Positions 7,780-24,076 of a stretch of DNA of 35,840 nt are shown here, piece after piece. The translations under genes and the position numbers were made by a program. The stretch comes from Nocardiopsis chromatogenes YIM 90109 (GTDB lineage Bacteria > Actinomycetota > Actinomycetes > Streptosporangiales > Streptosporangiaceae), in the NCBI RefSeq assembly GCF_000341185.1, contig NZ_ANBH01000004.1:21473-57312 (forward strand), in the 5' to 3' direction. A model generated the notes under the pieces. It did not search any database, had not been told where the DNA came from, and saw nothing but the letters and a program-made list of their open reading frames with translations. Numbering within the stretch: position 1 is the first letter of the stretch; each line of letters opens with the position of its first letter.

Positions 7780-7829
7780 CTTACGAATCCGCCCCTCGTT
7801 TGCCGTACCCCCGTTCTAACGTCGGTGGC

Positions 7830-8126
7830 ATGGCAAGCGAACAGCACACCGGCGGCCCCGCCCGGCTGGGGAGTGGGGTACCTGCCGGGTCGTCGCCCTC
7901 CTGGATCGCGAGGTGCCTGACGCCCGGCGGGCAGGGCCGGATGGGGGCACCTGCTGCTCCCGTCGCCGCAGACCATGGCGACCACTCACACGCCCACCGC
8001 CTGACAGCACCGCGGCGGGGGCCGCCGACCGTTCCCGGTCGGCGGCCCCGCTGGTGTTCCGGTGGGCCGTCGGCCGACCGGAGGGTGCGCGGGGAGGGGG
8101 TCCCGCTGCTCTGTCAGGGCTCGTAG
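7830..8126 (+). CDS. Doubtful small ORF with leaderless-type start
   Basis: An ATG at 7830 lies exactly seven bases after TAACGT (7817-7822), the spacing seen for leaderless actinobacterial mRNAs, and no Shine-Dalgarno is present. The frame encodes 98 residues with no recognised domain; the first 60 have moderate G/C third-position bias and a His-rich patch (DHGDHSHAH). It reads straight through the terminator at 8018-8049 and overlaps the end of rhaB, which argues against it as drawn; a truncated or frameshifted gene is possible. No function is proposed. Confidence 0.18.
   Translation: MASEQHTGGPARLGSGVPAGSSPSWIARCLTPGGQGRMGAPAAPVAADHGDHSHAHRLTAPRRGPPTVPGRRPRWCSGGPSADRRVRGEGVPLLCQGS
8018..8049. 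terminator. Terminator hairpin between siderophore and rhamnose operons
   Basis: Thirteen-base perfect stem GGGGCCGCCGACC with its complement at 8037-8049 and a 6-base loop (8031-8036). It lies 64 bases beyond the rhaB stop on the minus strand. There is no T-run, as is common in high-GC actinomycetes; it may act from both sides. Confidence 0.75.
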
Positions 8127-9604
8127 ACGGTCACCGGGAACGACACGCGGACGATGCTGCGCAGGTCCTCCAAGGTCGCCTCGGGGGACACCAACCCCGC
8201 GCTTCGTGCCTGGACCAGCAGGTTGCCGATGGCGGTCGCCTCCACTGGACCGGCCACCACCCGGCGCCCCGTTCGACGCGCGGTCAACCGGCACAGCAGT
8301 GCATTCTGCGAACCGCCCCCGACCACGTGCACCGTCCGCACCCTCCTGCCGGACAGCTCCTCCGCCGCGTCGATCGTTCGGGCGTAGGCCGCCGCCAGCG
8401 ACTCCAGGATGCTCCGGACCACCTCGGCCCGCGACCCCGGCGGCCGGACCCCCCGTTCCCCGCACCAGTCACGGATGCGCGCGGGCATGTTCCCCGGCGG
8501 GACGAACCGCTCGTCCGCCGCGTCGAAGACGGGGACCTCCCGCTCCACCTTCGCCGCCTCGTCGAGGAGTTCCTGCAGGTCCGCGCCGTCCCCGGCCGCG
8601 CCGGGGCGCCTGTCGGCGTCGCGCCAGGTGCGGACGGACTCGCTGAGCAGCCACAGCCCCGACACGTTGCGCAGGAACCGGACCCGCCCGTCCACCCCGC
8701 CCTCGTTGGTGAAGTTGGCCGCGCGTGCCTGCGCCGTCAGGACCGGAGCGTCGAGCTCCAGCCCCACCAGCGACCACGTCCCCGAGGAGATGTAGGCCGC
8801 GTCGGGCGTCTCGAACGGCACGGCCGCCACGGCCGAGGCCGTGTCGTGCGACCCGACCGCCGTCACCTGCACCCGGTCCCGGTCGGCCCCGAGGCGCTCG
8901 GCGACCCCGGCGGTGAACGGGCCGATCCGCTCGCCCGGTCTGACCAGGTCGGCGAAGAGGCCGGGCGAATACCCCAGCCGCCTCATCAGCTCCGTGTCCC
9001 AGGTCCGGTCGGCCACCGACAGCAGCCCCGTGGTCGAGGCGTTGGTGGCCTCGGCGCGGGCCCGCCCGGTGAGCCAGTAGGCCAGAAGGTCCGGGAGGAG
9101 CAGCAGCCGGTCGGCCAGGTCCAGGAACCCGGACTCGCGCTCGGCGGCCAGCTGGAACACCGTGTTGAAGTCGAGGTGCTGCAGGCCGTTGCGGGCGAAC
9201 AGCTCGGCCCCGTCGGCCTCGGCGTGCACCAGCTCCACGCCGCGCGCCGACCGTGCGTCCCGGTAGTGGTAGGGCACCCCGAGCATGCGGCCGCCGCGCA
9301 GCAGCGCGTAGTCCACCGCCCAGGAGTCGATCCCGATACTGCACAGCCCGGGGGCCGAGCGCACGGCGGCGCCCAGCCCCTCTTCGACCGCGCCGTAGAG
9401 CGCCTGGATGTTCCAGTGCAGCCCTTCGGTGCCGTGTCCCTCCGTGAAGGGGACGGGCGTGTTGGGGAACCGTGCGACCTGCTCCATGGCCAGGCGCCCG
9501 GACTCCAGGCGGCCGACCACCACCCGCCCGCTCGTCGCCCCCAGGTCGACGGCCGCGAGGGCAGGGGGAGAGGAACCCTCGCCGCCGGTTCGCCGCTCGG
9601 TCAC
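8114..9604 (-). CDS. rhaB: Rhamnulokinase
   Basis: Phosphorylates L-rhamnulose with ATP to give L-rhamnulose 1-phosphate, the third step of cytosolic rhamnose breakdown. The 496-residue product is a FGGY-family kinase (rhamnulokinases are near 490). Visible motifs are the phosphate-1 loop VDLGATSGRV near residue 19, SIGIDSWAVDYAL near 85 (sugar and metal site), GSHDTASAVAAVP near 262, SSGTWSLVGLE near 280, and the second-domain adenosine motif HVVGGGSQNALLC near 415. The start is GTG at 9604, five bases after the stop of the aldolase gene, with GTGAGG as ribosome site at that junction. It is the last gene of the operon, followed by a terminator. Confidence 0.95.
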   Translation of the reverse strand: MTERRTGGEGSSPPALAAVDLGATSGRVVVGRLESGRLAMEQVARFPNTPVPFTEGHGTEGLHWNIQALYGAVEEGLGAAVRSAPGLCSIGIDSWAVDYALLRGGRMLGVPYHYRDARSARGVELVHAEADGAELFARNGLQHLDFNTVFQLAAERESGFLDLADRLLLLPDLLAYWLTGRARAEATNASTTGLLSVADRTWDTELMRRLGYSPGLFADLVRPGERIGPFTAGVAERLGADRDRVQVTAVGSHDTASAVAAVPFETPDAAYISSGTWSLVGLELDAPVLTAQARAANFTNEGGVDGRVRFLRNVSGLWLLSESVRTWRDADRRPGAAGDGADLQELLDEAAKVEREVPVFDAADERFVPPGNMPARIRDWCGERGVRPPGSRAEVVRSILESLAAAYARTIDAAEELSGRRVRTVHVVGGGSQNALLCRLTARRTGRRVVAGPVEATAIGNLLVQARSAGLVSPEATLEDLRSIVRVSFPVTVYEP

Positions 9605-9609: not shown

Positions 9610-11652
9610 TCACCGCAGGAAGGCCGCCGCGACCCCGGCGTCGACCGGGACGTGCAGGCCCGTCGTGTGCGAGAAGTCGCTCGTGCACAGCGCGAAGACC
9701 GCGTTGGCCACGTGCTCGGGCAGCACCTCGCGCTTGAGGATGGTGCGCTGGGCGTAGAACGCGCCCAGGTCCTTCTCCTCGATGCCGTAGGTCTTGGCCC
9801 GCTGGGCGCCCCACCCTCCGGCGAAGATGCCCGAGCCGCGCACGACGCCGTCGGGGTTGACGCCGTTGACCCGGATGCCGTGCTCGCCGAGCTCGGCGGC
9901 GAGCAGGCGCACCTGGTGGGCCTGGTCGGCCTTGGCCGCCGAGTAGGCCACGTTGTTCGGGCCCGCGAACACCGAGTTCTTGGAGGCGATGTAGACGATG
10001 TCGCCGCCGAGGCCCTGGGCGGTGAGGATGCGCGCGGCGTTCTTGGCCACCAGGAAGGAGCCCTTGGCCATCACGTCGTGCTGCAGGTCCCAGTCCTTCT
10101 CGGTGGTCTCCAGCAGCGGCTTGGACAGCGACAGCCCGGCGTTGTTGACGACCAGGTCGACGCCGCCGAAGGCGAGGACGGCCTCGTCCAGGGCGGCCCG
10201 CACGGCGGCCTCGTCCGAGACGTCCGCGGCCACACCGACCGCGGTGTCGGGCCCGCCCAGCTCCTCGGCGGCCGCGCGGGCCTTCTCCGGGTCGAGGTCG
10301 GCGACGACGACGCAGGCGCCCTCGGCGGCCAGGCGCCCGGCGATCGCCTTGCCGATCCCGGAGGCCGCACCAGTCACGAACGCGACCCGGGCGGCCAGCG
10401 GCTTGGGCGCGGGGCGGCGCTTGAGCTTGGCCTCCTCCAGCGCCCAGTACTCGATGCGGAACTTCTCCTCCTCCCCGATCGGCCGGTAGGAGGACAGCGC
10501 CTCGGCGCCGCGCATCACGTTGATCGCGTTGAGGTAGAACTCGCCCGCCACCCGGGCCGTCTGCTTGTCGGCGCCGTAGGTGAACATGCCGACGCCGGGG
10601 ACGAGCACGACGGCCGGGTCGGCGCCGCGGATGGCCGGGGAGTCCTCGGTGGCGTAGCGCTCGTAGTAGGCGCGGTAGTCGGCCCGGTAGGCCTCGTGCA
10701 GCGCGGGCAGTGCCTCCAGGACCTGCTCGACGGGCGCGTCCGCGGGCAGGTCGACGACCAGCGGCTTGACCTTGGTGCGCAGGAAGTGGTCGGGGCAGCT
10801 GGTGCCCAGCTCGGCCAGCGCGGGCATCTTCTCCCGGGACAGGAAGTCGAGCACGGCGGCGCTGTCGTCGAAGTGCCCGACCGCCGGCCGGTCCGCAGAG
10901 GCGATGCGGCGCAGGTGCGGGGCCAGGGCCGCGGCCTTGGCGCGGCGCTCGGCCTCGGGCAGCGGCGCGCGGCCGGGACGCACGGCCCCGAACGGCTCGT
11001 CCGCGCCGTTCTCCTCGATGTACCGGGCGGCGGTCTCGATGATCCACCGGGAGTTGGCCTCGGCCTCCTCGGAGGTGTCGCCCCAGGCGGTGATGCCGTG
11101 CCCGCCCAGGACGGTGCCCACGGCCTGCGGGTTGGCCCGCTTGACCTCGGCGATGTCCAGGCCGAGCTGGAAGCCGGGGCGGCGCCAGGGCACCCACACC
11201 ACCGTGCCGCCGAAGATCTTCGCGGTCAGCTCCTCGCCGTCGGCGGCGGTGGCGACGGCGATGCCGGAATCGGGGTGCAGGTGGTCCACGTGCGCGGCGT
11301 CGACGAGCCCGTGCATGGCGGTGTCGATGGACGGGGCGGCGCCGCCCTTGCCGTGCAGGCAGTAGTCGAAGGCGGCGACCATCTCGTCCTCGCGCTCGAC
11401 GCCCGGGTAGACGTCGGCCAGGGCCCGCATGCGGTCCAGGCGCAGCACGGCCAGGCCGCCCGGCGTGAGGGTGCCCAGGTCGCCGCCGGAGCCCTTGACC
11501 CAGAGCAGTTCGACGTCCTCCCCGGTCACCGGGTCGGTCTCGGTGCCCTTGGCCGAGGTGTTGCCGCCGGCGAAGTTGGTGTTGCGGGGGTCGGAGCCCA
11601 GCGCGTTCGACCGCGCGATGAGCTCGGCGACGGTCGGGTGGAGTTCAGGCAT
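9610..11652 (-). CDS. Bifunctional rhamnulose-1-phosphate aldolase / short-chain dehydrogenase
   Basis: A two-domain fusion. Residues about 1-370 are a class II aldolase/adducin domain that splits L-rhamnulose 1-phosphate into dihydroxyacetone phosphate and L-lactaldehyde; zinc ligands are suggested by HVDHLHPD and LGGHGIT. Residues about 405-680 are a short-chain dehydrogenase (TGAASGIG cofactor loop, NNAG, and YSAAK catalytic Tyr-Lys) that should oxidise lactaldehyde to lactate. Fusing them channels the reactive aldehyde. This form (called RhaD/RhaEW in various genomes) is known in actinobacteria, Bacillus and alphaproteobacteria. I prefer the ATG at 11652 (680 residues), which has GGAGAGAACGGAAAAGCG before it; an in-frame ATG at 11676 has no visible ribosome site. 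A 76-base gap separates it from rhaI. Confidence 0.95.
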   Translation of the reverse strand: MPELHPTVAELIARSNALGSDPRNTNFAGGNTSAKGTETDPVTGEDVELLWVKGSGGDLGTLTPGGLAVLRLDRMRALADVYPGVEREDEMVAAFDYCLHGKGGAAPSIDTAMHGLVDAAHVDHLHPDSGIAVATAADGEELTAKIFGGTVVWVPWRRPGFQLGLDIAEVKRANPQAVGTVLGGHGITAWGDTSEEAEANSRWIIETAARYIEENGADEPFGAVRPGRAPLPEAERRAKAAALAPHLRRIASADRPAVGHFDDSAAVLDFLSREKMPALAELGTSCPDHFLRTKVKPLVVDLPADAPVEQVLEALPALHEAYRADYRAYYERYATEDSPAIRGADPAVVLVPGVGMFTYGADKQTARVAGEFYLNAINVMRGAEALSSYRPIGEEEKFRIEYWALEEAKLKRRPAPKPLAARVAFVTGAASGIGKAIAGRLAAEGACVVVADLDPEKARAAAEELGGPDTAVGVAADVSDEAAVRAALDEAVLAFGGVDLVVNNAGLSLSKPLLETTEKDWDLQHDVMAKGSFLVAKNAARILTAQGLGGDIVYIASKNSVFAGPNNVAYSAAKADQAHQVRLLAAELGEHGIRVNGVNPDGVVRGSGIFAGGWGAQRAKTYGIEEKDLGAFYAQRTILKREVLPEHVANAVFALCTSDFSHTTGLHVPVDAGVAAAFLR

Positions 11653-11728
11653 CGCTTTTCCGTTCTCTCCGTTCATGGTGGGCGTGGGGCGGGGCGTGCG
11701 GGGTGTGGTCCGGTGGGGGCGCGGAGGG

Positions 11729-12889
11729 TCAGGCGCCCCATCCGGCCTGGACGCCGCCGACGCGCTCGGCCTCGATGGCCTCCTGGTAGCCGGAGTCGAG
11801 GTAGGCCCGCATCGGGTCGGCCGGAAGCCCGCGGCCCACGCGCCATTCGGCGAGCATCGGGCGGACGTCGGTCTGGAAGGCGTCCATGAACACCGCGTTG
11901 GCCTCCAGCACGTCCCCGGCGACCTGGGCGGCGCGCAGCGCCCCGGTGTCGAGGAGCAGCGCCCGGGCGGTCATCTCCTGCACGTTGAGCACCGAGCGGA
12001 TCTGGCCGGGGATCTTCTTCTCCACGTTGTGGCACTGGTCGAGCATGAAGGCCACGTCCGGGCTGTTGAGCCCGCCGCCGCGCACCACCTCGACGATGAT
12101 GCGGAAAAGCTGGAAGGGGTCGGCGGCGCCGACGATGAGGTCGTCGTCGGCGTAGAAGCGCGAGTTGAAGTCGAACGAGCCGAGCTTGCCCAGCCGCAGC
12201 AGCTGCATGACGATGAACTCGATGTTGGTGCCCGGCGCGTGGTGGCCGGTGTCCAGGCACACCACCGCCTTGTCGCCCAGGGCGGCCACCTGGGCGTAGC
12301 TGGTCCCCCAGTCCGGCACGTCGGTGTGGTAGAAGGCCGGCTCGAAGAACTTGTACTCCAGCACCAGGCGCTGGTCGTCGCCGAGGCGCTCGTAGATGGT
12401 GCGCAGCGACTCGTGCAGGCGGTCCTGGCGGCCCCGCATGTCGGCCTGGCCGGGGTAGTTGGACCCTTCGGCCAGCCAGATCTTCAGGTCGCGCGACCCG
12501 GTCTCGTGCATGATGTCGATGCACGCGAAGTGGTGGTCGATCGCCTTCTTGCGGATGCGCGGGTCCTCGTGGGTGAGGGCGCCGAACTTGTAGTCGTCGT
12601 CCTGGAAGGTGTTGGAGTTGACAGTGCCCAGGCGCACCCCGTTCTCCTCGGCGTGCGCGCGCAGGGCGGCGAAGTCGCACCGGTCCCAGGGGATGTGCAG
12701 GGCGACGGCGGGTGCCAGTCCGGTGTGGCGGTGCACCTGCGCGGCGTCGGAGATCTTCTCGAAGGGGTCGCGCGGGGTCCCCGGGGTACCGAAAACCTTG
12801 AAGCGGGTGCCGGAGTTGCCGAACGCCCACGACGGCAGTTCGATCGCCTGGGCGGCGAGGTCGTCGGTGATCTGCTCGAAGGCGGTCAC
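11729..12889 (-). CDS. rhaI: L-rhamnose isomerase
   Basis: Converts L-rhamnose to L-rhamnulose using divalent metal. The 386-residue product is a xylose-isomerase-like TIM barrel of the RhaI type (Pseudomonas stutzeri and actinobacteria) rather than the E. coli RhaA type. Likely metal ligands are the Glu in VLEYKFFEP, the Asp and His in CLDTGHHAPG, and the Asp in SFDFNSR; FMLDQCHNVEKK is another conserved stretch. Start is GTG at 12889, sharing GTGA with the rhaM stop, with AAGGGA upstream, so translation is coupled to rhaM. Confidence 0.94.
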   Translation of the reverse strand: MTAFEQITDDLAAQAIELPSWAFGNSGTRFKVFGTPGTPRDPFEKISDAAQVHRHTGLAPAVALHIPWDRCDFAALRAHAEENGVRLGTVNSNTFQDDDYKFGALTHEDPRIRKKAIDHHFACIDIMHETGSRDLKIWLAEGSNYPGQADMRGRQDRLHESLRTIYERLGDDQRLVLEYKFFEPAFYHTDVPDWGTSYAQVAALGDKAVVCLDTGHHAPGTNIEFIVMQLLRLGKLGSFDFNSRFYADDDLIVGAADPFQLFRIIVEVVRGGGLNSPDVAFMLDQCHNVEKKIPGQIRSVLNVQEMTARALLLDTGALRAAQVAGDVLEANAVFMDAFQTDVRPMLAEWRVGRGLPADPMRAYLDSGYQEAIEAERVGGVQAGWGA

Positions 12890-13266
12890 TGCGGGTTCCC
12901 TTCCTCGGTGGTGTCGGCGGCCGGGGCCCCTTCGCCCAGGGCCGCCATCTGGTCCTCCAGGTGGAAGACCTCGCGCAGGCGGACGGGGCCAGCCTCGAAC
13001 GAGCCGCCCTCGGCGAAGAAGGGGCGCATGGAGGCCTGCCACCGCGCGTTGATCTCGGTGGGCTCCATCCGGGCCTGGGCGGCTTCGTAGTCGTCGGTCT
13101 CCAGGTAGCCGACGACGGTGCCGTCGTCCTGGGCGAAGAGGGAGTAGTTCGTCCATCCGGCCTCGTACAGGGCCCGGAGCATCTCCGGCCACACGGCCCG
13201 GTGCCGTTCGATGTACTCGTCGAGCCGGTCGGGCCGCACCTGCATGCGGAAGCACACGCGCTCCAC
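12886..13266 (-). CDS. rhaM: L-rhamnose mutarotase
   Basis: Interconverts the alpha and beta anomers of L-rhamnose, supplying the form used by the isomerase. The protein has 126 residues, slightly longer than the usual 104 because of an acidic C-terminal tail (APAADTTEEGNPQ). RHRAVWPEML near residue 22 contains the conserved His and the WPE motif of the RhaM/RhaU dimeric alpha-beta barrel, and MEPTEINARWQ is also typical. The start is GTG at 13266 with a strong AAGGAGGC site. A hairpin lies between it and the transporter gene upstream. Confidence 0.92.
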   Translation of the reverse strand: MERVCFRMQVRPDRLDEYIERHRAVWPEMLRALYEAGWTNYSLFAQDDGTVVGYLETDDYEAAQARMEPTEINARWQASMRPFFAEGGSFEAGPVRLREVFHLEDQMAALGEGAPAADTTEEGNPQ

Positions 13267-13332: not shown

Positions 13333-14643
13333 TCAGTTCCCGGCGCCGGCCTTGGCCGGTGCGCCTGCGCCGGGGTCGAGCACCCGGCCGTAGCGCTCGA
13401 CCTCGATCTGCTCAAGGCTCTTGCCCTGCGTGCGGGGCGCCCAGACGGTGCCGATGGCCAGGGCGGCGACCAGCAGGCCGAGGATGAGCACGCCCACCCC
13501 GTGCAGGCCGACCTGTTCGAGCATCAGCGGGAACCAGAGGCTGAGGACGCCGACCATGACGCGGACGAGCATGAACATCACGCCCTGGGCCGAGGCCCGG
13601 TAGCGGGTGGCGAACAGTTCGGCGGCCCACAGTCCGTAGAAGGCCTGGGCGCCGATGCCGGCCGAGATGCCCCAGCCGATGGCGAAGAACAGCAGCGAGA
13701 ACCAGCCGGCCGGGCCGTAGATGAGGACCGCCCAGGCGGCCACGCCCAGGGCGGCGCCGATGAAGTAGAGCCAGCGGCGGGGGAAGCTGTCGCCGTGCCG
13801 CATGAAGCCCCAGAACGTCGCCGCCGACGTCAGGGTCCACACCAGGACCTGCAGGAGGTACTGGGAGGAGGCGTCGGTCAAGCCGGTCGCCTCGTAGATG
13901 CGCGGTTGGAAGATGCCCGCCTGCCCGGCCACGGTGTTCCACAGGCCGTACACGCCGACCAGGAACAGCAGCGCCGTGAGGTTCTTCTTGTTCGTGAGCA
14001 GCTGGAGGAAGCCCTTGTAGGTGCCGACCCGGTCGGGGTTGGCGTTCTTCTCCTTCCAGCGCTGCGACTCGTCCAGGCCGCGCCGCACCCACCAGGTGAC
14101 GGCGGCGACGACGAACAGGTGGGCGAAGACCAGCCGGGCGCCGAGCAGGCCGAGCGGTTCGACGAGCACGGCGAGCAGGAACCCGACGGCCGGGCCGATC
14201 GACCAGGCGAGCTGGGCCACGCCGACGTGCCCGGCGCGGCGGTCGTCCGGGGCCTCCTCGGCGATGTAGGTCCAGGCGGCCGTCACCCCGGCGCCGACCG
14301 CGATGCCGGTGAGCACGAACCCGGTGAGCAGCATGCCGAAGTTCACCGCGAACACCGCGAAGAGCGTGCCCAGCATGTACAGCAGCAGGTCGTAGGTGTA
14401 GATGAACTTGCGGCCGAACCGGTCGCACAGCGGGCCGCCGATCGCGGCGCCGATGGCCGCGCCGAAGGCGTTGGCGCTCAGGGCGCTCAGCAGGCCCACC
14501 GCCAGGCTGTCCAGGCCGAACTCGGTCTGCCACAGGCTGAGGCTGGTGGCGATCGCGATGATCGAACCGGCCTCGATGTAGTTGGACATGGCCACGGCGG
14601 TGGTGGCCTTCCATTTCGACGCTGACGTCGTCGCAGCCTTCAT
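13333..14643 (-). CDS. MFS sugar transporter, probable L-rhamnose importer
   Basis: The 436-residue protein has about 12 hydrophobic segments. GPLCDRFGRKFIYTYD near residue 72 is the MFS loop 2-3 signature (G-x3-D-R-x-G-R-K), and RYRASAQGVMF near 355 is the equivalent in the second half. It is the first gene of the rhamnose operon, so monosaccharide L-rhamnose is the inferred substrate. The start chosen is ATG at 14643, with GGAGA about 10 bases upstream. The open frame continues to 14838, but that extension crosses the promoter and operator and is not hydrophobic, so it is rejected. The C-terminus ends in a soluble Pro/Ala/Gly-rich tail. Confidence 0.9.
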   Translation of the reverse strand: MKAATTSASKWKATTAVAMSNYIEAGSIIAIATSLSLWQTEFGLDSLAVGLLSALSANAFGAAIGAAIGGPLCDRFGRKFIYTYDLLLYMLGTLFAVFAVNFGMLLTGFVLTGIAVGAGVTAAWTYIAEEAPDDRRAGHVGVAQLAWSIGPAVGFLLAVLVEPLGLLGARLVFAHLFVVAAVTWWVRRGLDESQRWKEKNANPDRVGTYKGFLQLLTNKKNLTALLFLVGVYGLWNTVAGQAGIFQPRIYEATGLTDASSQYLLQVLVWTLTSAATFWGFMRHGDSFPRRWLYFIGAALGVAAWAVLIYGPAGWFSLLFFAIGWGISAGIGAQAFYGLWAAELFATRYRASAQGVMFMLVRVMVGVLSLWFPLMLEQVGLHGVGVLILGLLVAALAIGTVWAPRTQGKSLEQIEVERYGRVLDPGAGAPAKAGAGN

Positions 14644-14774: not shown

Positions 14775-14829
14775 TGAAACGATTCAAAGTGACGGGCGCT
14801 ACATTTGCACGCATGACACTCGACGTCAA
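14775..14829 (-). promoter_or_regulatory. Rhamnose operon promoter and operator
   Basis: On the minus strand, TTGACG (14829-14824) is followed 17 bases later by AAATGT (14806-14801), a weak -10. The operator TGAATCGTTTCA (14786-14775) lies about 15 bases further on, a position where a bound repressor would block elongation or initiation. The operator is imperfect at one position pair relative to the copy near the lyase gene. Confidence 0.55.
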
Positions 14830-15070: not shown

Positions 15071-15125
15071 TTGACACCGGCATGAGGCAAACCATATGGT
15101 TCCCGCCACATTCTGAATCGATTCA
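15071..15125 (+). promoter_or_regulatory. Lyase gene promoter and operator
   Basis: TTGACA (15071-15076) and TATGGT (15095-15100) are separated by 18 bases and form a good vegetative promoter. The perfect palindrome TGAATCGATTCA (15114-15125) starts 14 bases after the -10 element, over the likely transcription start. Its central CG and 12-base length are typical of LacI-family operators in actinobacteria. Confidence 0.72.
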
Positions 15126-15181: not shown

Positions 15182-16618
15182 GTGGCCCCTCCCCGCACGT
15201 CCGCCCGCCGCCGCGTCCTGGCCGCGGCGGCCGCGGCCCCTGTCGCCGCCGCCCTGCTGCAGGCCCCCGCGCACGCCGCCCAGGACGCGCCCGGCCTGAC
15301 CCCCGCCGACGACACCGTCCTGGACGACCGGGCGCTCTACTTCGTCTCCTACGACGGCCTGGTCAACAACTCCTCGTACCAGCAGGACGCGATCCTCACC
15401 CACGGCCGGTACCAGTACGCGACCTGGTACACCGAGGACCGGTCACCGGTCATCGCCCGGCGCACCGCCTCCTCCGGAGGCGGCACGGGCGACTGGGAGA
15501 GCGTCGTCCTGCCCCACTCCCTGTCGGTCGACGACTCCCACAACACCATCTCCCTGGGCGTCTCCCCCGAGGACGGCCGCATCCACGTCGCCCTGGACAC
15601 CCACTCCAGCACCGTCTACTACTTCCGCTCGGAGGCCGGGCTCGCCGACGCCCCGGCCTCGGACTGGGCGGCGGACGCCTTCGGCGGGGTCCAGCGCGAC
15701 CTGGAAGGCGTGGACGTCGGCACGTTCACCTACCCCCGGTTCGTGCAGAGCCCGTCGGGGGCGCTGCAGCTCAGCTTCCGGAACGGGATCTCGGGCGACG
15801 GCACCATGGAGCTGGCCGAGTACCGCGACGGCGAGTGGGCCAGGCTCGGGCCGTGGACGTCGGCCACCGGCACCTACCGGGACCACGGCGGCACGAGCGA
15901 ACGGCGCAACCTGTACCTCCACGGCATCGACTACGACGCCGACGGCCGCCTGCACGCCTCCTTCACCTGGCGCGAGCGGTCGGGCGACATCGCCTGTGGG
16001 CCCGGCAACGTCACCAACCACGACACCGGGTACGTCTACAGCGACGACGAGGGCCGCACCTGGCACACCGACAACGGCGCCACCGCCGCGGTCACCGGCG
16101 GGGGCCGGATGCTGTCGGTGAACACGCCGGGCCACGTGGTGGACCCGCTCTCGGCCGACCACGCCCTGCTCAACCAGGAGGCGCAGGCGGTGGACTCGGA
16201 GGGGAACCCGCACGTGGTGATCAGCTACGTGCCGGGGCGGTTCACCCAGTGCGTCTCGGACTTCACCGAGGACCGGCGGGACCACGGGTACGCCTTCCAC
16301 CTGTACCGCGACGACGCCGGGGAATGGCACAAGATGGAGATCCCCGAGGCCCTGAACGCCTTCGGGCGATCCCGGCTGGTCCTGGACGGGGACGACGACG
16401 CCTACGTGGTCATGCCCGGCGGCAGGATCATGGCGGCGAGCGCCGAGAGCGGCTGGACGGACTGGACGAAGGTGCACGACGGCCTCGGCGCCTTCGGCGA
16501 GGTCCTGGTCGACGCCGACCGCGTCCGCGAGACCGGCCGGTTCTCGGTCCTCTACCAGGAGCCGAGCACGGGCACCACCCCGTCCCCGATCCACGTCGCC
16601 GACTTCCGCACCGACTGA
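15182..16618 (+). CDS. Tat-secreted BNR-type beta-propeller protein, putative polysaccharide lyase
   Basis: Predicted exported 478-residue protein. The N-terminus SARRRVLAAAAAAPVAAALL followed by APAHA is a twin-arginine signal with cleavage near residue 32. The rest resembles the BNR_4 seven-bladed beta-propeller group that includes ulvan lyases (PL24/PL25) and rhamnose-glucuronate lyases. DSHN (His120), LDTH (His141), TYPRF (Tyr184) and SFRNG (Arg200) are spaced much like the His/His/Tyr/Arg active-site set I recall for PL25. The operator match and divergent position beside rhamnose catabolism suggest it releases rhamnose-containing products from uronate polysaccharides such as ulvan or arabinogalactan caps. 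The start is GTG at 15182 with GAGGAGAC upstream. SDDEGRTWH is an Asp-box-like repeat. A non-catalytic or sialidase-like role is the alternative. Confidence 0.8.
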   Translation: MAPPRTSARRRVLAAAAAAPVAAALLQAPAHAAQDAPGLTPADDTVLDDRALYFVSYDGLVNNSSYQQDAILTHGRYQYATWYTEDRSPVIARRTASSGGGTGDWESVVLPHSLSVDDSHNTISLGVSPEDGRIHVALDTHSSTVYYFRSEAGLADAPASDWAADAFGGVQRDLEGVDVGTFTYPRFVQSPSGALQLSFRNGISGDGTMELAEYRDGEWARLGPWTSATGTYRDHGGTSERRNLYLHGIDYDADGRLHASFTWRERSGDIACGPGNVTNHDTGYVYSDDEGRTWHTDNGATAAVTGGGRMLSVNTPGHVVDPLSADHALLNQEAQAVDSEGNPHVVISYVPGRFTQCVSDFTEDRRDHGYAFHLYRDDAGEWHKMEIPEALNAFGRSRLVLDGDDDAYVVMPGGRIMAASAESGWTDWTKVHDGLGAFGEVLVDADRVRETGRFSVLYQEPSTGTTPSPIHVADFRTD

Positions 16619-16685: not shown

Positions 16686-17537
16686 CTACACGAAGAGCGT
16701 CCCCCGGGCGACGACGACCGCGGACCCCGCGACCTGGACCGCGTCGATCCGTTCGGGCGTGCCCAGAGCCCGCGCGTGCATCGTCGAAGGGCGGCCGATC
16801 TCGACCCCCTGGCGGATCTCGGTCCACTCCCCGACCCCGACCAGGCCGTGCCGGACCAGATGGACCGCGAGCGCACCGGCGGCCGACCCCGTGGCCGCGT
16901 CCTCCGCCACGCCGTAGGCGGGAGAGAACATCCGCAGCCTCCACCGCGTCCCCGACCCCGCGAAGCAGTTCGCGGCGATATCGGGCAGCCGGGCGAGGAC
17001 CCTCAGGTCCGGTTCCAACGCGGAGAGCGCGTCCACGCCGCCCAGGCCGACGAACACGTGCCGGGGGCCGTTGCGGTAGACCTCGACCGGCAGGGTGCAG
17101 GCGGACGGCGCCAGGCCGAGGCCGGCGAGCAGCTCCTCCTCCCGTTCGTACGGCCCCCAGGTCGGGACGGGCTGCCTCATACGGGCCGCCCCGACCCTGC
17201 CGTCCGGTCCGCGCTCCAGCTCGAAGGCCACGGTGCCCATGGCCGTCTCCATCCGGAGGCCCCGCGCCGTGGTCCTCTCGCCGAGCACGATCGCGGTGCC
17301 CAGGGTGGGGTGCCCGGCGAACGGCAGCTCGTTCACCGGGGTGAAGATCCGTACCCGCACGTCGCCGTCGCCTTCGGCCGGGAGGACGAAGACCGTCTCC
17401 GACAGGTGCATCTCCTGCGCGATCCGCTGCATGCGCCCGGGGTTGATCCCGGCGGAGTCGACGAAGACCGCGGTCGGGTTGCCCTCCAGCGGAACGCCGG
17501 TGAAGACGTCGGCCACCGCGTACTCGTACCTGCCCAC
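16686..17537 (-). CDS. phzF: PhzF, trans-2,3-dihydro-3-hydroxyanthranilate isomerase
   Basis: Isomerises the PhzD product to the reactive ketone that pairs to build the phenazine core. The 283-residue protein shows the PhzF two-lobe diaminopimelate-epimerase-like fold: PLEGNPTAVFVD near residue 15, HLSETVFVL with the catalytic Glu near 45, FTPVNELPFAGHPTLGT near 70 with the conserved His, and AEDAATGSAAG near 210 with the Asp and the Gly/Ser substrate loop. The start is taken at GTG 17537 with AAGGGG eight bases before; a TTG at 17555 is possible but less likely. It is the last gene of the phenazine operon, next to a terminator, 52 bases after the methyltransferase gene. Confidence 0.94.
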   Translation of the reverse strand: MGRYEYAVADVFTGVPLEGNPTAVFVDSAGINPGRMQRIAQEMHLSETVFVLPAEGDGDVRVRIFTPVNELPFAGHPTLGTAIVLGERTTARGLRMETAMGTVAFELERGPDGRVGAARMRQPVPTWGPYEREEELLAGLGLAPSACTLPVEVYRNGPRHVFVGLGGVDALSALEPDLRVLARLPDIAANCFAGSGTRWRLRMFSPAYGVAEDAATGSAAGALAVHLVRHGLVGVGEWTEIRQGVEIGRPSTMHARALGTPERIDAVQVAGSAVVVARGTLFV

Positions 17538-17589
17538 AGGTGCCCCTTCTTCCAATGGTCGGATCCCCGAACGGACCGGTGCCGGGCCG

Positions 17590-18618
17590 TCACCCGCCGC
17601 CCACGGGCTCCGGCGTCCGCGGCGCGGCGATCACGGCGGTCGTCTCCATGGGCAGCCCCGCGGTCCGTTCGACGTACAGGCCCGCCCGTTCCAGCAGCGC
17701 CGTGAGCCCGCCGAGCGTGCGGTGGGCGCCACCGGTCGTCATCAGCAGGTGCAGGTCCCACAGGGAGGGCAGCACGGTGGGGTCCTCGTCCTCGACGAAG
17801 CGGTCGAGGACAAGGACACGCGACGACGCGTCCGCCATGGCGTCGCGGCACTCGGCGAAGAGGGCGACGACCGCGTCGTCCTCCCAGCGGGCCAGCATCC
17901 GGCACAGGATGTAGACGTCCCCGCCCTGGGGGACCCCTTCGAACATGTCGCCCCCGACCAGCCGGACGCGGTCCAGCCCGACGGCGGCCTCCAGGTGATC
18001 GCGCGCCGCGGGCAGCATGTGGTCGCGGTCGAAGAACGTACCCTCGGCCTTCGGCGCGGCGCCGAGGATCACGGCGAGCAGGTCCCCGCCCCCTCCGCCC
18101 ACGTCCACGACCGTGCGGTCGGAGAAGTCGAACACCTCGGGCACCTGCGGGAAGAACATGTTCCCCGCGTTCAGGGTGTTCTGGAAGCGCCGGGCGGTGA
18201 CGGGGTCCCGGCCGAGGTGGTCGTAGAACGGGCGGCCGAAGGCCGCCTCGAAGCCCGAACCCGCCGTGCTGATGGCGTGGTGGGCGTGCCCCCAGGCCGT
18301 GTAGTAGTCCTCGCCGTGGAGCAGGCACATGTCGCGCAGGGAGTGCGGCCCGTCGAGCAGGGTCCTGCTCACGCGGGTGCCCCGGTAGCCGGCCGCCCCG
18401 TCGCCCTCGAACACGCCCATGGCGACGAGGAGGCGCATCAGGCGGCGCACGCCCTCCTCATCGGCTCCGGTCTCCCGTGCGAGCCGCGCGGGGGTGCCGC
18501 ACCCCGCCTCGACACGGTCCGGTATCCCGAGTCTGACCGCGGTGTACAGGGCCTGTGCCCGCCAACCGCCGGTGATGATGTCGATCACGTCCCGTGTGGC
18601 CTCGATGTCGGCCGTCAT
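17590..18618 (-). CDS. SAM-dependent methyltransferase of the phenazine operon
   Basis: A 342-residue enzyme of the class that includes PhzM and plant-type O-methyltransferases: an N-terminal winged-helix dimerisation domain (about 1-100) and a C-terminal Rossmann domain with the SAM loop VVDVGGGGGDLLAVIL near residue 167. The segment where O-methyltransferases have the catalytic His (LHDW) reads MLARWEDD, so the usual base is absent; this favours N-methylation, as by PhzM on phenazine-1-carboxylate, or an atypical O-methylation. The start ATG at 18618 has GGGGAGGCGAGG upstream. It sits between phzB and phzF, so it most likely tailors the phenazine. The open frame extends further upstream but is low-complexity. 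Confidence 0.88.
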   Translation of the reverse strand: MTADIEATRDVIDIITGGWRAQALYTAVRLGIPDRVEAGCGTPARLARETGADEEGVRRLMRLLVAMGVFEGDGAAGYRGTRVSRTLLDGPHSLRDMCLLHGEDYYTAWGHAHHAISTAGSGFEAAFGRPFYDHLGRDPVTARRFQNTLNAGNMFFPQVPEVFDFSDRTVVDVGGGGGDLLAVILGAAPKAEGTFFDRDHMLPAARDHLEAAVGLDRVRLVGGDMFEGVPQGGDVYILCRMLARWEDDAVVALFAECRDAMADASSRVLVLDRFVEDEDPTVLPSLWDLHLLMTTGGAHRTLGGLTALLERAGLYVERTAGLPMETTAVIAAPRTPEPVGGG

Positions 18619-18650
18619 CCTCGCCTCCCCGTTCCTTTCCTCCGCACCGG

Positions 18651-18678
18651 CGCCCGGCCGGGCCCCCGGGGCCGGGCG
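18651..18678 (-). terminator. Hairpin between phzB and the methyltransferase gene
   Basis: Nine-base stem (CGCCCGGCC with GGCCGGGCG) and a 10-base loop in the 109-base gap after phzB. No T-run. It may attenuate transcription into the methyltransferase and phzF or be a processing site. Confidence 0.4.
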
Positions 18679-18727
18679 TCCGGTCAGGACGCGCACGGCC
18701 CCGGAACCGCGGCACGGGCTCGGGGTC

Positions 18728-19219
18728 CTACGTGGGAATACCGCCGCGCTTGATCTTCGGCACCTCGATCCCCAACGCGCGCAGCTGCTGGAACGGGTTC
18801 ATGAATTCGCGGTTCTGCTTGATCCTGCCGTTCTCCAGCAGGAACGCGTGGATGAAGTGGTTGCGGTAGTGGCCGGGCGGGTAGTCGGGGTAGCGGATCT
18901 GCCCCTCACCGTCGCATTCGACCCAGAACCTGTTGGGATCCTGCGTCTCGTAGATCTCGACATTGATCCATTCCCAGTCCGGGAACATCTTGAGCGACCA
19001 CTCGCCGTGCGCCTTGAGCCTCTCGTGCCCCTGCGAGACGATCGGCTGCCCGGTGTCGGTGGTGTACAGTCCGGCGCTGCCGTCCTCGGTGAAGAGCAGG
19101 TACCGCGTCAGGCGGTTCTCGCCTTTCCGGCTCATGTAATCGGCGACGACCTCGCGGTGGCGGCGGCGGAGTTCTTCGTCGGTGCCGAACCCCTCGGAAC
19201 GGTTCTCGGTCTCGGCCAT
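18728..19219 (-). CDS. phzB: PhzB-type phenazine biosynthesis protein
   Basis: PhzA/B proteins are small NTF2-fold dimers that catalyse the condensation of two ketone molecules during phenazine assembly. The 163-residue product matches the family length (about 162) and its features: an N-terminal helix (ELRRRHREVVADYMSR), RLTRYLLFTEDGSAGLY, FPDWEWINVEIYET and HFIHAFLLENGRIKQNREFM. The start ATG at 19219 has a strong AAGGAGA. There is one copy only; the PhzA/PhzB duplication is a Pseudomonas feature, so a single gene is expected here. It follows phzG after a 71-base gap containing a small hairpin (19239-19255). Confidence 0.94.
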   Translation of the reverse strand: MAETENRSEGFGTDEELRRRHREVVADYMSRKGENRLTRYLLFTEDGSAGLYTTDTGQPIVSQGHERLKAHGEWSLKMFPDWEWINVEIYETQDPNRFWVECDGEGQIRYPDYPPGHYRNHFIHAFLLENGRIKQNREFMNPFQQLRALGIEVPKIKRGGIPT

Positions 19220-19290
19220 CCCGTCTCCTTTCCTCTTCGACGGCGCGGGGCCGTCCTCGGCCTGTCGGGGATCTCCTCCGGGGGGCGGCG

Positions 19291-19908
19291 TCACGGCTGG
19301 AGCCGCCCTGTACGCCACCCGGAGCGGTCGCGGTCGTAGCGCAGGCGCCGGTGCAGCCGCCCCGGGTCGGCCTGCCAGAACTCGACGGACTCGGGCTCCA
19401 GCAGGTAGCCCAGCCAGCGGGCCGGGCGGGGCAGCGGCGCTCCGGCGCGCTCCAGCCGCTCGGCCCGCTGACGCAGCTCCTCCTCGTCCGCGAGCGGTGC
19501 GCTCTGCCGCGAGGCCGTCGACATCGGATGGGCACCGGGCGGGCGGGCCGCCCACAGCGCCTCGGACTCCTCGTCCGGCAGGGGGCCGGTCGGGCCGGAC
19601 ACGATCACCTGGCGCCCAGCCTCGCGCCAGTACAGCACCCCCGAGGCCCAGGCCGTCTGGGCGAGGTCCCGGCCCTTGCGGCTGTCGGCGTGGCTGGTGA
19701 AGACCAGACCGGTGTCGCGGACGTCGAGCACCTGCACGATCCGGTTGGAGGCGCGGCCTGAGGCGTCGGCGGAGGCCAGGGCCAGCGCCCCCGGCTCCCG
19801 GACCCTCTCCTCGACCGCGCGGTCGAACCAGGCGCGCAGGAGGCCCATCGGTTCGGCGGGCGGGGCGGTGAACGCGTCGGCCGCGCCCGGGCGGCGGGCG
19901 GTGGTCAC
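19291..19908 (-). CDS. phzG: PhzG, FMN-dependent phenazine oxidase
   Basis: A 205-residue flavoprotein of the pyridoxamine 5'-phosphate oxidase split-barrel family that oxidises the unstable hexahydro-phenazine intermediates. FMN-contacting segments visible are SNRIVQVLDVRDTGLVFTS near residue 55, HADSRKGRDL near 77, and YWREAGRQVIVSG near 96; the C-terminal RLRYDRD and WRTGRLQP resemble the substrate-end motif. The start is GTG at 19908 with GGGAGG upstream, sharing GTGA with the stop of the preceding 115-residue gene. Confidence 0.93.
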   Translation of the reverse strand: MTTARRPGAADAFTAPPAEPMGLLRAWFDRAVEERVREPGALALASADASGRASNRIVQVLDVRDTGLVFTSHADSRKGRDLAQTAWASGVLYWREAGRQVIVSGPTGPLPDEESEALWAARPPGAHPMSTASRQSAPLADEEELRQRAERLERAGAPLPRPARWLGYLLEPESVEFWQADPGRLHRRLRYDRDRSGWRTGRLQP

Positions 19909-20252
19909 GACGACCTCCCTTCCGGGGCGAAGGCCCGGCCGCGTTCGAGGGGGTGCCCCGAGTGGAGGCCTTCGACGACGGCCTCGACGTCGAAAGCCAT
20001 GCGGTGTGTCGGCGGGTACCCGATGAGCTCGCTCGCCCGGTTCGGCGGCAGGGGCGCGTCCGGGTCGGCCGTGGAGTCCCACAGCATCACCGCGCCCCAG
20101 CGGCCGGTGGGCTCGTCCGAGATCCAGAACTTCAGGCGCAGCCCGGGGACGTGCTCCCACGGCTCGACGCCCTCGTCCCGCAGGTACTCCCGCAGGGACG
20201 CGTTGGTCTGGTCGGACCGGGACAGGTCCCACCAGGCGATGGCGGCCTTCAT
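19905..20252 (-). CDS. Small unknown protein in the phenazine operon, possibly YdhR-like
   Basis: 115 residues, coupled on both sides: its ATG overlaps the phzE stop (ATGA) and its stop overlaps the phzG start (GTGA), so it must be made in step with the core enzymes. I do not recognise it firmly. The pattern AIAWWDLS at the start, then GLRLKFWISDEPTGRWGAVMLW, resembles dimeric alpha-beta barrel proteins such as YdhR and antibiotic-biosynthesis monooxygenases, which act as small oxygenases or scaffold proteins. A role in oxidising or handling a phenazine intermediate is inference from position. The third-position G/C bias is normal, supporting a real gene. There is no signal peptide. Confidence 0.85.
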   Translation of the reverse strand: MKAAIAWWDLSRSDQTNASLREYLRDEGVEPWEHVPGLRLKFWISDEPTGRWGAVMLWDSTADPDAPLPPNRASELIGYPPTHRMAFDVEAVVEGLHSGHPLERGRAFAPEGRSS

Positions 20253-22162
20253 TCGCTCAGTGCCTCCTGGGTCGTGGTCATCCGTTCCAGCAGTCCGCCG
20301 AGGATCCGCTCGCCGTCGCGGGTGAGCACCGATTCGAGGTGGAACTGCACGGAGGCGAAGAACGGCCCGCGCAGGGCGTGGACCTCGCCGGTGCCGGGGT
20401 CCAGGGCGGCCCCCACCTCTCCGATGCCGGGGCACTCCACGCGCTCGGCCTCCGCGACGGCCACGTAGGAGTTGTAGAACCCCACCCGTTCCCGTGAGCC
20501 GAACAGGTCGATCTCCCGTTGGGCGCCCTGGTTGGGCACGTCCCGGCGCCGCAGGGCGAACCCGAGGTGCCGGCAGAGCAGCTGGTGGCTCAGGCAGACG
20601 GCCAGGAAGGGGATGCGCCGGGACACCAGGCGCCCGATCGTCGACGCGATGCGGGCCATGCGGGGGTGGCCGGTCTCGCGCGGGTCGCCGGGTCCGGGGC
20701 CCAGGACGACGATGTCGTGGTCGTCGAAGTCGTGGGGCTCGTCGAAGCGGGCGAGCCGCACGGTAGGCCCGACGGCACGCAGCTGGTGGGCGAGCATGGA
20801 GCTGAAGGTGTCCTCGGCGTCGATGACCAGCGCCCGGCGCCCGTCCAGCCGCGGTCGCGGCCGTGCCCGGTGCTCGGCGTCGTCGAGCCAGAAGCGGGCG
20901 ATGGTCGCGTTGCGCCGCTCCAGCGCCTTCCTGACCTGCGGGTGGCCGTCGAGCCGCTCGTCGGCGCCCAGGGCCGAGAGCAGCCCCGCGGCCTTGGTGC
21001 GGGTCTCGGCGACCTCGGCGACGGGGTCGGAGTGGCGGACCAGGGTCGCGCCCACGCCGATCTCGACGTGTCCGATTCCCGATCCGTCCGAGCGGATGTC
21101 GGCGGTGCGGATGAGGATGGCGGAGTCCATGGAGCGCCGCCCGGCCGCGTCGCGGCCGATGAGGGCGGCGACGCCGGAGTAGTACCCGCGGCCCTGCGGC
21201 TCGTACCGGGCGATCACCCGGCAGGCGTTCTCCAGCGGGCTGCCGGTCACCGTGGGGGCGAACATCGTCGCCCGGAGGATGTCCCTGGGATCGAGGCGGC
21301 TGCGCCCCTCGATGGTGTACTCGGTGTGCGCGAGCCAGGCCATCTCCCGCAGGAACGGTCCGGCCACCCGGCCGCCGCCCTCGCAGACCCGGGCCATCAT
21401 CTTCAGTTCCTCGTCCAGGACCATGGACAGCTCGTCGGTCTCCTTGCCGTCGTCGAGGAAGTCCATGACCTCCGACAGGACCGGCCCGGTCGGGGGGTAG
21501 CGGTAGGTGCCGCTGATCGGGGTCATCGCCGCGACGCCGTCGCGCAGGCTGACGTGGCGCTCCGGGGTGGCGCCGACGAAGGTGCGCGTGCCGGTGTGCA
21601 CGAGGAAGGTCCAGTAGGCGCCGGTCTCGCGGGCGAGCAGGCGGCGGAACAGGCTGAGCGCGCTGCGGGTGGAGTATCCGGAGATCGTGGTGGTGTAGGA
21701 GCGCTTGATGACGAAGTTCGAGCCCTCCCCTGCGCCGATCTCGTCGTCGAGCACCGCGCGGACGGTGTCGGCGTAGTCCTCGTCCCCGATGTCGAAGCCG
21801 CCGCCGGTCAGGGTGATCGGGTCGTCGGGCAGGGTCCTCATCGCCTCCGGGACCGGGATGCGGCCCTGCTCCGACACCTCCAGCGCGAGCAGCGGCGAGG
21901 AGTCCTCCGGGGCGGCGAAGCCGCGTTCGGCGATCTGCCGGTAGGGCACCAGGACCAGGACGTCGTGGTGCGGCTCGCCGTGAGGCGCGGGGCCGTCGTC
22001 GGGCCGGGCGCCGAGCGGGATGTCGGCGAGCAGGGCGGGCGTGCCGACCGTTCCGAGCAGGATCTCGACCCGGTCCGGGCCCACCGTCTCGGGGCGGTGC
22101 AGGAGGGCGAAGGGTCCCGGTTCTGGGCCCAGCACGTGATGAAACAGCCGCTCGGCGCTCAT
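20249..22162 (-). CDS. phzE: PhzE, 2-amino-2-desoxyisochorismate synthase
   Basis: Adds ammonia from glutamine to chorismate to form 2-amino-2-desoxyisochorismate (ADIC), the committed step. The 637-residue protein matches family length. Residues about 1-400 form the chorismate-binding domain ([44 protein letters not shown]); residues about 430-630 are a class I glutamine amidotransferase with the Cys in AVCLSHQLL, and His and Glu in SVQFHLESV. The start ATG at 22162 shares ATGA with the phzD stop. It ends in ATGA overlap with the small unknown gene. Confidence 0.96.
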
Positions 22163-22782
22163 CGCAGGACCTCCTCGGTCGTGGTGACCACCGAGCAGCG
22201 CAGGGCCGCGTAGTCCAGGGCCAGGCGGTGGTAGTCGGCGGAGAAGTCGCCGAGGGCGTCGGCGACCAGGAACGCCTCGATGTCGTTGGTGAACGCCTCC
22301 AGGGCGGTGGCCAGGACTCCGACGTGGGCGTACACCCCGCAGACGATGAGCTGGTCGCGGCCCATGCCGCGCATCCGCGCCAGCAGGTCGGAGCGGAAGA
22401 AGGCGCTGTAGCGCCACTTGGTGAGCACCGGGTCCTCCGGCCGCGGGGCCAGCTCCTCCGCGATCTCCCGGTCGCGGGGGTCGCTCCGCATACCCGGCCC
22501 CCAGAAGTCCTTCAGGAGGCCGCGTTCGTCGTCCGTCATTCCGCCGGGTTGGGCGGTGTAGTAGACCGGCACCCCGTGGGCGGCGCACCGCTCGCGCAGC
22601 TGTACGCAGTGGCGCACCAGCGGGTCGCGCACCGGCGCGGGGAACGGCGCGAGGAAGTAGCGCTGCATGTCGTGCACGAGCAGCACCGCCCGGGCCGGGT
22701 CGACGGTCCAGTGCACGGTGCCGGCGGGGAGGTCCTCGGCCGTGGGCAGGGGGTAGGCGGGGATCGGCGCTATGCCCGGCAC
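22159..22782 (-). CDS. phzD: PhzD, isochorismatase
   Basis: Hydrolyses the vinyl ether of ADIC to release pyruvate and trans-2,3-dihydro-3-hydroxyanthranilate. The 207-residue protein is exactly the length of Pseudomonas PhzD and is close to it throughout: [23 protein letters not shown] (catalytic Asp), [20 protein letters not shown] (catalytic Lys), and [10 protein letters not shown]. In related isochorismatases the last motif carries a Cys where PhzD has Val-Tyr-Ala. The start is GTG at 22782 inside the end of phzC, with GAAGGAGAGAC upstream, giving a 13-base overlap. Confidence 0.97.
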
Positions 22783-23978
22783 GTCTCTCCTTCGGCGCGT
22801 TCCGTCATGGTCGGTGCCCGCCAGGCCGAGACCACCGATACGGCCTGGCGGGGGTTGAGCCTCGGGTCGCACAGGCTCGTGGAGCCGTTCTCGGCCGGGG
22901 CGGTCGCGCCGTCGGCGTCGACGCACTCGGCCACGGCGTCGGGGGTCGTCTCCAGGTGTATTCCGCCCGGTGTCCCGCCGGCGGCGCGGACGGCGTCCTG
23001 GAAGGCCCGGACCTCCCGGACCACCGTCTCGACGACCCGGGTCTTGCGGCCCTCGGCGGTCGTGCGCGTGTTGCCGTGCATGGGGTCGACCAGCCAGACG
23101 ACCGGGTGCCCGGCGGTGCGCACGGCCTCCACGAGCGGCGGGAGCGCTTCGGCCACCGTGTCGGCGCCCAGCCGGGCGATGAGGGTGAGCCGCCCCGGTG
23201 TCCGCCCGGGGTCGAGCCGCGCGCACAGGGCGAGCAGGTCGGTGGCGGTCGCCTCTGGTCCGACCTTGCAGGCGACGGGGTTGTCCACGTCCGCCAGCAG
23301 CGCGACGTGCGCCCCGTCGGGCCTGGCCGTACGCGCGCCGATCCACGGCCAGTGCGTGGAGGCGAGGACGCGGCCCCCGTACCGGTCCCGGCGCAGCATC
23401 GGAATCTCGTAGTCGAGCAGCAGCGCCTCATGGCTGGTCCACACCGGCGGCCCGACACGCTCCCACGGGGTCGCGGCGAGATTGGCCAGGACCCGGCTCG
23501 CCGCGCTGTACCCCGCCAGCAGCCGCCAGGGGTCGGGCCTGCGCGCCTCCGGGTCCGCTTCGGGCCCGTTGACCATGTGTCCCCGGTAGACCGGGATCTC
23601 GACGCCGCCGATCCTCTCGGTGTGCGCCGACCGCGGCTTGGCGTACTGCCCCGCGATGCGTCCCACCCGCACCACCGGCTGACGGGTGATCGCCTCCATG
23701 GTTCCGGCGAGCAGGTGGAGTAGGCCCGCTTTGCGGTCCACGTCGTGTGCGGTGCATTCCGCGGGGTCCTCCGCGCAGTCGCCGGCCTGCACCACCTGCG
23801 CCCGCCCGGCGGCGGCCTCGGCGAGCGCCGTCCGGAGCCCGCTCAGTGACGAGGGCTCGATGAGCGGGGGCAGGGCCGCCAGCGCCGCGCGGACCCGCTC
23901 GACCTGTCCGGCGTCCTCCCACCGGGGCTGCTGATCGGCGGCGAGAGCCTCCGCGACCTCCGGCGAGGCGGCACTCAA
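22770..23978 (-). CDS. phzC: PhzC, class II DAHP synthase
   Basis: Makes 3-deoxy-D-arabino-heptulosonate 7-phosphate from phosphoenolpyruvate and erythrose 4-phosphate, raising shikimate flux into phenazines. Class II motifs: [10 protein letters not shown] near residue 65 (metal-binding Cys), GQYAKPRS near 113, [11 protein letters not shown] near 225, ACKVGP near 250, LIARLGAD near 282 and DPMHGNT near 312. I place the start at TTG 23978 (402 residues, matching the about 405 of PhzC proteins): it overlaps the stop of the leader ORF as TTGA, like the other couplings in this operon. The frame remains open to 24275, but that stretch is less G/C-biased and would add a 99-residue extension with no homology I recognise. 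Confidence 0.92.
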
Positions 23979-24073: not shown

Positions 24074-24076
24074 CAC

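Follow-up and report, generated by a model that had tools for sequence, protein, structure and literature searches.

The predicted lyase gene and its surroundings

The window, by which we mean the whole stretch of DNA analysed (35,840 nucleotides from Nocardiopsis chromatogenes YIM 90109), carries on its forward strand an open reading frame at 15182-16618 that begins with GTG and encodes 478 amino acids. It is a real gene, with a third-position GC of 0.98 over its 478 codons, a plausible ribosome-binding site (AGAGGAG) upstream of the GTG and a product that matches the Pfam family BNR_4 with an E value of 1.9e-76. This is the single BNR_4 match in the 6.9-Mb host genome, and the closest named homologues, found on genome contigs, are those of N. 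suaedae (94% identity) and N. endophytica (93%). A reading made earlier from the sequence alone had placed the gene divergent from a full rhamnose pathway, and profile matches confirmed this arrangement, identifying the isomerase RhaI, an aldolase/dehydrogenase fusion, a rhamnulokinase-like kinase, a mutarotase and a transporter of the MFS type. The features of the locus are as follows.

8114..9565, minus strand: rhamnulokinase-like FGGY kinase, approximate start, best-scoring model below cut-off (401 bits against TIGR02627, cut-off 528; profile match)
9610..11676, minus strand: rhamnulose-1-phosphate aldolase/short-chain dehydrogenase fusion, RhaEW type, over cut-off (profile match)
11729..12889, minus strand: L-rhamnose isomerase RhaI, TIGR02635 over cut-off, start inferred (profile match)
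12886..13266, minus strand: L-rhamnose mutarotase RhaM, Pfam PF05336, over cut-off (profile match)
13333..14643, minus strand: MFS transporter, candidate rhamnose permease, start inferred (profile match)
14775..14786, no strand assigned: candidate operator TGAAACGATTCA, upstream of the divergent MFS-rha operon (palindrome search)
15114..15125, no strand assigned: candidate operator TGAATCGATTCA, 56 bases upstream of the lyase start codon (palindrome search)
15182..16618, plus strand: predicted PL42-type L-rhamnose-alpha-1,4-D-glucuronate lyase gene, 478 amino acids (homology, fold, aligned residues)
15182..15280, plus strand: putative signal peptide, residues 1-33, twin-Arg-like, probable cleavage near AHA-A (sequence reading)

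Two further gene groups flank this set. Beside the rha operon, positions 1644-7595 hold siderophore-type genes, among them an IucA/IucC-family synthetase, a second synthetase related to SbnF, an HpcH/HpaI aldolase-like protein and a PLP-dependent decarboxylase. Adjoining the lyase, positions 16686-24275 hold phenazine-type genes (PhzF-like, an O-methyltransferase, PhzA/B-like, a PhzE-like protein with chorismate-binding and glutamine amidotransferase parts, and a class II DAHP synthase).

The product had been described as a Tat-exported beta-propeller. The propeller is borne out by the fold comparisons below, and Tat export is plausible for this protein given its N-terminal SARRRVLAA... and AHA-A motifs. 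As a conserved trait the Tat motif was rejected: of 48 sequences, several of which were truncated at the N terminus by extraction, 24 have an RR pair ahead of the mature domain.

Family placement by sequence and fold

The sequence-only reading had proposed an active site like that of PL25 ulvan lyases, from the identity and spacing of four residues. His120, His141, Tyr184 and Arg200 do occupy the positions given and align with His85, His105, Tyr150 and Arg166 of FoRham1, the founder of PL42 (PMC8377490), and the PL25 residues given for comparison (His123/His143/Tyr188/Arg204) agree with the same paper. As the four FoRham1 residues lie together in its crystal structure, their counterparts in the window protein may be expected, indirectly, to do so as well. 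The His/His/Tyr/Arg spacings of 21/43/16 in the window protein are indeed near the 20/45/16 of the PL25 enzyme PLSV_3936, but FoRham1 has 20/45/16 as well (both from residue numbers in PMC8377490), and BT3686 has 20/33/16 when its Arg159 is taken from our alignment. Because the FoRham1 and PL25 spacings are identical, the four-residue signature marks a wider propeller-lyase group, and we rejected a PL25-specific reading of it.

Sequence comparison separates the families more clearly. The best match in the PDB was FoRham1 (E 5.4e-35, residues 61-477), followed by Bacteroides GH145/PL42 proteins (4e-19 to 2e-16) and, further behind, by ulvan lyases (Uly1 and one entered as 'Short ulvan lyase') at 5e-6 to 8e-5; Uly1, like LOR_107, belongs to PL24 (PMC10951650). 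PL25 chains were absent from the 13 PDB sequences found at E up to 1. The fold was compared using an AlphaFold model of moderate quality (pLDDT 66.5, pTM 0.70), built from a five-sequence alignment that leaves out one weak, partial viral_contigs hit. With this model, VIA-align ranked FoRham1 first (Z 39.9, r.m.s.d. 2.6, 392 residues aligned), ahead of GH145/PL42 (Z 35.0-35.5), PL24 (27.2-28.3) and PL25 (25.9-26.0), the last at the same level as the Photorhabdus lectins (25.5-27.0). Foldseek likewise put FoRham1 on top and PL25 well behind, with GH145 and PL24 interleaved. The protein is thus related in sequence to the PL42 founder and, as far as the model can be trusted, has a propeller closest to that of FoRham1, and neither a PL24 enzyme (Z 27-28 against 39.9) nor a PL25 enzyme (Z 26 against 39.9) is its nearest relative by sequence or fold. 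This is an assignment to the family as a whole, the tree leaving the window clade unplaced within PL42, with FoRham1 and the distant homologue L093 on long branches marked as unsure.

The predicted anterior active site

We mapped onto the window protein the anterior side chains of FoRham1 that are named in the crystallographic and neutron studies (PMC8377490, PMC10951650). By alignment, all on the plus strand, these are as follows.

15377..15379: Tyr66 = FoRham1 Tyr26, which contacts rhamnose; replaced by Phe in 24 of the 42 close rows
15533..15541: Asp118-Ser-His120 = FoRham1 Asp83 and His85 (base/acid catalyst)
15602..15604: His141 = FoRham1 His105
15731..15733: Tyr184 = FoRham1 Tyr150
15779..15781: Arg200 = FoRham1 Arg166, carboxylate neutraliser
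15791..15793: Ser204 = FoRham1 Ser170, GlcA O1 contact
15914..15916: Tyr245 = FoRham1 Tyr202
15971..15973: Arg264 = FoRham1 Arg220, GlcA O3 contact
16172..16177: Asn331-Gln332 = FoRham1 Asn275-Gln276, rhamnose O2/O3 contacts
16367..16369: Arg396 = FoRham1 Arg331, rhamnose O2/O3
16499..16501: Glu440 = FoRham1 Glu381, which forms a salt bridge with the rhamnose-binding Arg

All 13 mapped side chains (Tyr66, Asp118, His120, His141, Tyr184, Arg200, Ser204, Tyr245, Arg264, Asn331, Gln332, Arg396 and Glu440) are identical in the two proteins, as expected of a PL42 member. Among the 42 close rows of the alignment, window protein included, ten of them never vary (His120, His141, Tyr184, Arg200, Tyr245, Arg264, Asn331, Gln332, Arg396, Glu440), Ser204 is kept in 41 and Asp118 in 40; at position 66, as listed, Phe is common. 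The set is more conserved than core positions drawn at random, 1 of 100,000 draws having reached its level. In the distant BNR_4 homologues L088, L089, L090, L091 and L093 (33-37% identity) the catalytic residues are kept, Arg396 is replaced by Lys in three of the five, and the fetched stretches contain no rhamnose genes.

The FoRham1 counterparts of Asn331, Gln332, Arg396 and Glu440 are grouped around O2 and O3 of the terminal rhamnose (PMC8377490). Retention of this group would be more in keeping with an exo-acting enzyme that sets rhamnose free than with one that cleaves 3-sulfated ulvan in endo fashion. These residues bear directly on whether the protein could instead be an endo-acting ulvan lyase of the PL24/PL25 type cutting Rha3S-GlcA chains, towards which the sequence-only reading had leaned. 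The arrangement and spacing of the His/His/Tyr/Arg set, the presence of PL24 and PL25 among the fold matches, the interleaving of PL24 with GH145 in Foldseek and the ulvan lyase hits in the sequence search all speak for such an enzyme. It is nevertheless very improbable in our estimation, for FoRham1 is far the better match by both sequence and fold, with PL24 behind and PL25 last, and the residues with which FoRham1 holds a terminal, unsubstituted rhamnose are kept: four of its five terminal-rhamnose side chains (Asn, Gln, Arg, Glu) are invariant in the close rows and the fifth, Tyr66, is Tyr or Phe. Ulvan rhamnose, by contrast, bears a 3-sulfate (PMC8406133), and the neighbouring genes are those of a monosaccharide pathway (RhaS, mutarotase, isomerase). 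The PL24 and PL25 enzymes LOR_107 and PLSV_3936 share with the window protein a seven-bladed propeller, the His-His-Asp motif and an Arg neutraliser, and differ in being endo-acting on ulvan with deeper clefts (PMC8377490), in addition to their weaker sequence match and lower fold score.

The label of an ulvan-lyase-like protein therefore did not survive as a specific reading. Its broader content, a beta-propeller lyase active site acting on a rhamnose-uronate linkage and connected with rhamnose catabolism, appears to have been right as far as sequence can tell, and both gum arabic and PL42 were already among the possibilities it named. The gene seems to encode an uncharacterised actinobacterial enzyme of an established family, and not an ulvan lyase.

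The resemblance to FoRham1 of Fusarium oxysporum (7ESK, 7ESM, 7ESN, 7YQS) covers the fold, the His-His-Asp triad, the Tyr, the Arg neutraliser and the mapped rhamnose and glucuronate contacts. The two differ in that identity is 33% over 370 aligned columns, in that the window enzyme is bacterial and genetically tied to rhamnose catabolism, and in that it has a posterior His in place of Tyr and an insertion after Glu265. BT3686, BACCELL_00856 and BACINT_00347, Bacteroides proteins formerly in GH145 and now in PL42, share the fold and the anterior lyase residues, and BT3686 also has the posterior His, at an overall identity of 31% over 247 aligned columns. In the literature examined, experimental work on PL42 or the former GH145 concerns one fungal enzyme and a few enzymes from Bacteroidota. 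No characterised actinobacterial PL42 enzyme is among the matches listed, in which mentions of Streptomyces and Lentzea are genome lists, and no paper in the literature searched holds both the words PL42 and Nocardiopsis.

Association with rhamnose catabolism

To see the gene in its relatives, we surveyed 48 loci, window included, as stretches of about 14-21 kb around the homologues; 43 are close (the window and those above 45% identity to it) and five distant. RhaI, the aldolase fusion or the rhamnose-binding protein RhaS lies in the stretch in 38 of the 48 loci, that is, in 38 of the 43 close loci and in none of the five distant ones. The lyase follows RhaI on the same strand in 10 loci, with aligned ends 27-159 bp apart, and follows RhaM on the same strand in 23, with 7-283 bp between aligned ends. 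The fetched stretches of the remaining five close loci (L072, L074, L075, L076, L092) contain no rha genes. In profile searches of representatives, RhaS was over cut-off in two of two and a LacI domain was over cut-off in L052; the mutarotases of three relatives scored 66-72 bits, below the NCBIfam cut-off of 99.6. In L071 a GH78-type alpha-L-rhamnosidase (5906-9199) directly adjoins the lyase. The homologue in L092 (genome G251) consists of two adjacent pieces on one strand and may be broken or frameshifted.

The association extends to whole genomes. The lyase was found at E 1e-20 in 33 of 297 genomes of the family, and RhaI at E 1e-100 in 192 of the 297, including all 33 that bear the lyase (Fisher p 1.9e-7, in a test that treats related genomes as if independent). 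Within a sample of 394 genomes of the class, 22 have the lyase. Gene order, joined in part by the candidate operator, links an actinobacterial clade of the family to the uptake and breakdown of rhamnose.

A candidate shared operator

The two candidate operators in the window conform to the palindrome TGAAWCGATTCA, which occurs at two sites in the 6.9-Mb host genome, both between the lyase and the rha operon; the reversed control pattern occurs nowhere in the genome. These genome-wide counts are for the TGAAWCGATTCA pattern itself, looser variants falling outside their scope. When up to two mismatches were allowed within the window, there were five strand matches where 0.61 would be expected; as many turned up in 1 of 100 shuffles. 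Across the survey, TGAANCGNTTCA is present in 17 of the 48 loci, as well as in L004, a duplicate of L094, and is absent from the other 31. In L094 and in all 12 loci of the Streptomyces clade (L005 and L077-L087, grouped by the tree) it is found 69-151 bp upstream of the first rhaI codon in the alignment.

The lyase and rha genes are probably under the same switch, putatively one of LacI type. At E up to 1e-30 the host genome holds 10 matches to the LacI protein that adjoins the lyase in L051, none of them within the range of the window. The top match shows 46% identity over residues 109-330, and a partial match of 56% over residues 3-124 lies at the edge of another contig; the two may be halves of one gene. 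This organisation resembles the RhaR (LacI) regulon of Actinomycetales (PMC3870299), with its aldolase/dehydrogenase fusion, ABC or MFS rhamnose transporter, LacI regulator and palindromic operator, a likeness that does not imply identity between its motif and the candidate operator. It differs in that the upstream enzymes named there are the rhamnosidases RamA and RhmA; in the main text of that paper BNR, neuraminidase, glucuron and propeller occur 0 times, and 'lyase' twice, both times in rhamnogalacturonate lyase.

Predicted reaction and substrate

We consider it likely that the gene encodes an exported, exo-acting PL42 L-rhamnose-alpha-1,4-D-glucuronate lyase, with export, activity, substrate, transporter specificity and regulator all predicted from sequence. 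On the anterior face of the seven-bladed propeller, Arg200 together with His141 and Tyr184 would neutralise the glucuronate carboxylate, and His120, held by Asp118, would take the C5 proton and pass it on to the glycosidic oxygen. Terminal L-rhamnose would leave and the glucuronate become unsaturated. After conversion by the mutarotase, the freed rhamnose would enter the cell through the MFS transporter here, or through an ABC system in many relatives. RhaI, the kinase and the aldolase/dehydrogenase would then break it down, all under the shared LacI-type operator. The gene is most likely an actinobacterial PL42-type lyase of ordinary mechanism that serves rhamnose catabolism, and the rhamnose it is predicted to free would most likely come from arabinogalactan-type caps. 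The genetic tie would give the enzyme a clear biological role, the scavenging of rhamnose from glucuronate caps, and makes the actinobacterial homologues ready candidates as tools for gum arabic and arabinogalactan.

Conservation of the site does not fix the exact glycan, since two Bacteroides relatives, and BT3686 carrying H48A, act through the anterior site on wine AGP and not on gum arabic (PMC8406133). FoRham1 acts on gum arabic and prefers the free disaccharide (PMC8377490). These observations, together with the lack of a GH88/GH105 match in the host genome, lend some weight to a possibility that overlaps the preferred reading and narrows it, namely a PL42 lyase of the same chemistry whose natural glycan is a substituted or sulfated arabinogalactan, a microbial exopolysaccharide cap or the free Rha-GlcA disaccharide rather than simple gum-arabic-type caps. 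We hold this version only tentatively, as the glucuronate and rhamnose side-chain contacts of the gum-arabic-active FoRham1 are kept.

The remainder of an arabinogalactan pathway is sparse in the host. A complete degrading set was not found in its genome, which has one GH43 match, which need not be a galactanase, one GH78 match and no GH88/GH105 match at E 1e-3. An 824-residue frame of L096 has no Pfam match at E 1e-5 and is not the GH43 reading frame. A search with the GH79 C-terminal domain matched no control genome and is hence uninformative. GH88/GH105 is not enriched in lyase-bearing genomes: 1 of the 33 has a match, compared with 23 of the 264 that lack the lyase (p 0.49). BT3686 and the B. 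plebeius enzyme, by comparison, lie in AGP utilisation loci, that of B. plebeius with a GH105 (PMC8406133), whereas the window enzyme lies beside rhamnose catabolism. As no GH88/GH105 was matched, no known enzyme was found for the unsaturated cap left behind. Either rhamnose alone is used and the cap abandoned, or another enzyme acts on the cap, or a posterior site matters.

The posterior face and His74

His74 (15401..15403, plus strand) aligns without gaps with His48 of BT3686, the catalytic residue of a posterior hydrolase site (PMC8377490, PMC8406133); FoRham1 has Tyr34 at this position. The window protein therefore has the posterior GH145 histidine, although the residue is inconstant within its clade. 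Across a 49-row tree, position 74 is His in 25 rows, Tyr in 17 (FoRham1 included) and neither in seven, a distribution that needs five changes.

The histidine would be expected if the protein were, instead of or in addition to a lyase, a retaining alpha-L-rhamnosidase acting through its posterior face, as reported for BT3686 (GH145). Such an enzyme would agree with the occurrence of His in 21 of the 23 rows in the window protein's own clade, and hydrolytic release would suit the absence of a GH88/GH105 match, since plain glucuronate would be left and a GH88/GH105 enzyme would not be needed. We nonetheless regard it as improbable. Conservation at position 74 is weak, with 60% His and a rank at the 36th percentile among core positions. 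Tyr stands there in L003, which is 93% identical, and in 10 of the 12 rows from the Streptomyces clade, and the NCBIfam model for BT3686, NF052497, gave 98.5 bits against a cut-off of 700. The anterior PL42 lyase accordingly stays the preferred reading, with His74 as the one residue that points to a second, hydrolytic site. We would likewise give a low probability to two working sites on one actinobacterial propeller, an anterior PL42 lyase and a posterior His74 hydrolase, both feeding rhamnose to a catabolic operon with a shared operator. Were that so, the switch between His and Tyr at position 74 in Nocardiopsis relatives that are almost identical would amount to a natural experiment on how the second site is gained or lost.
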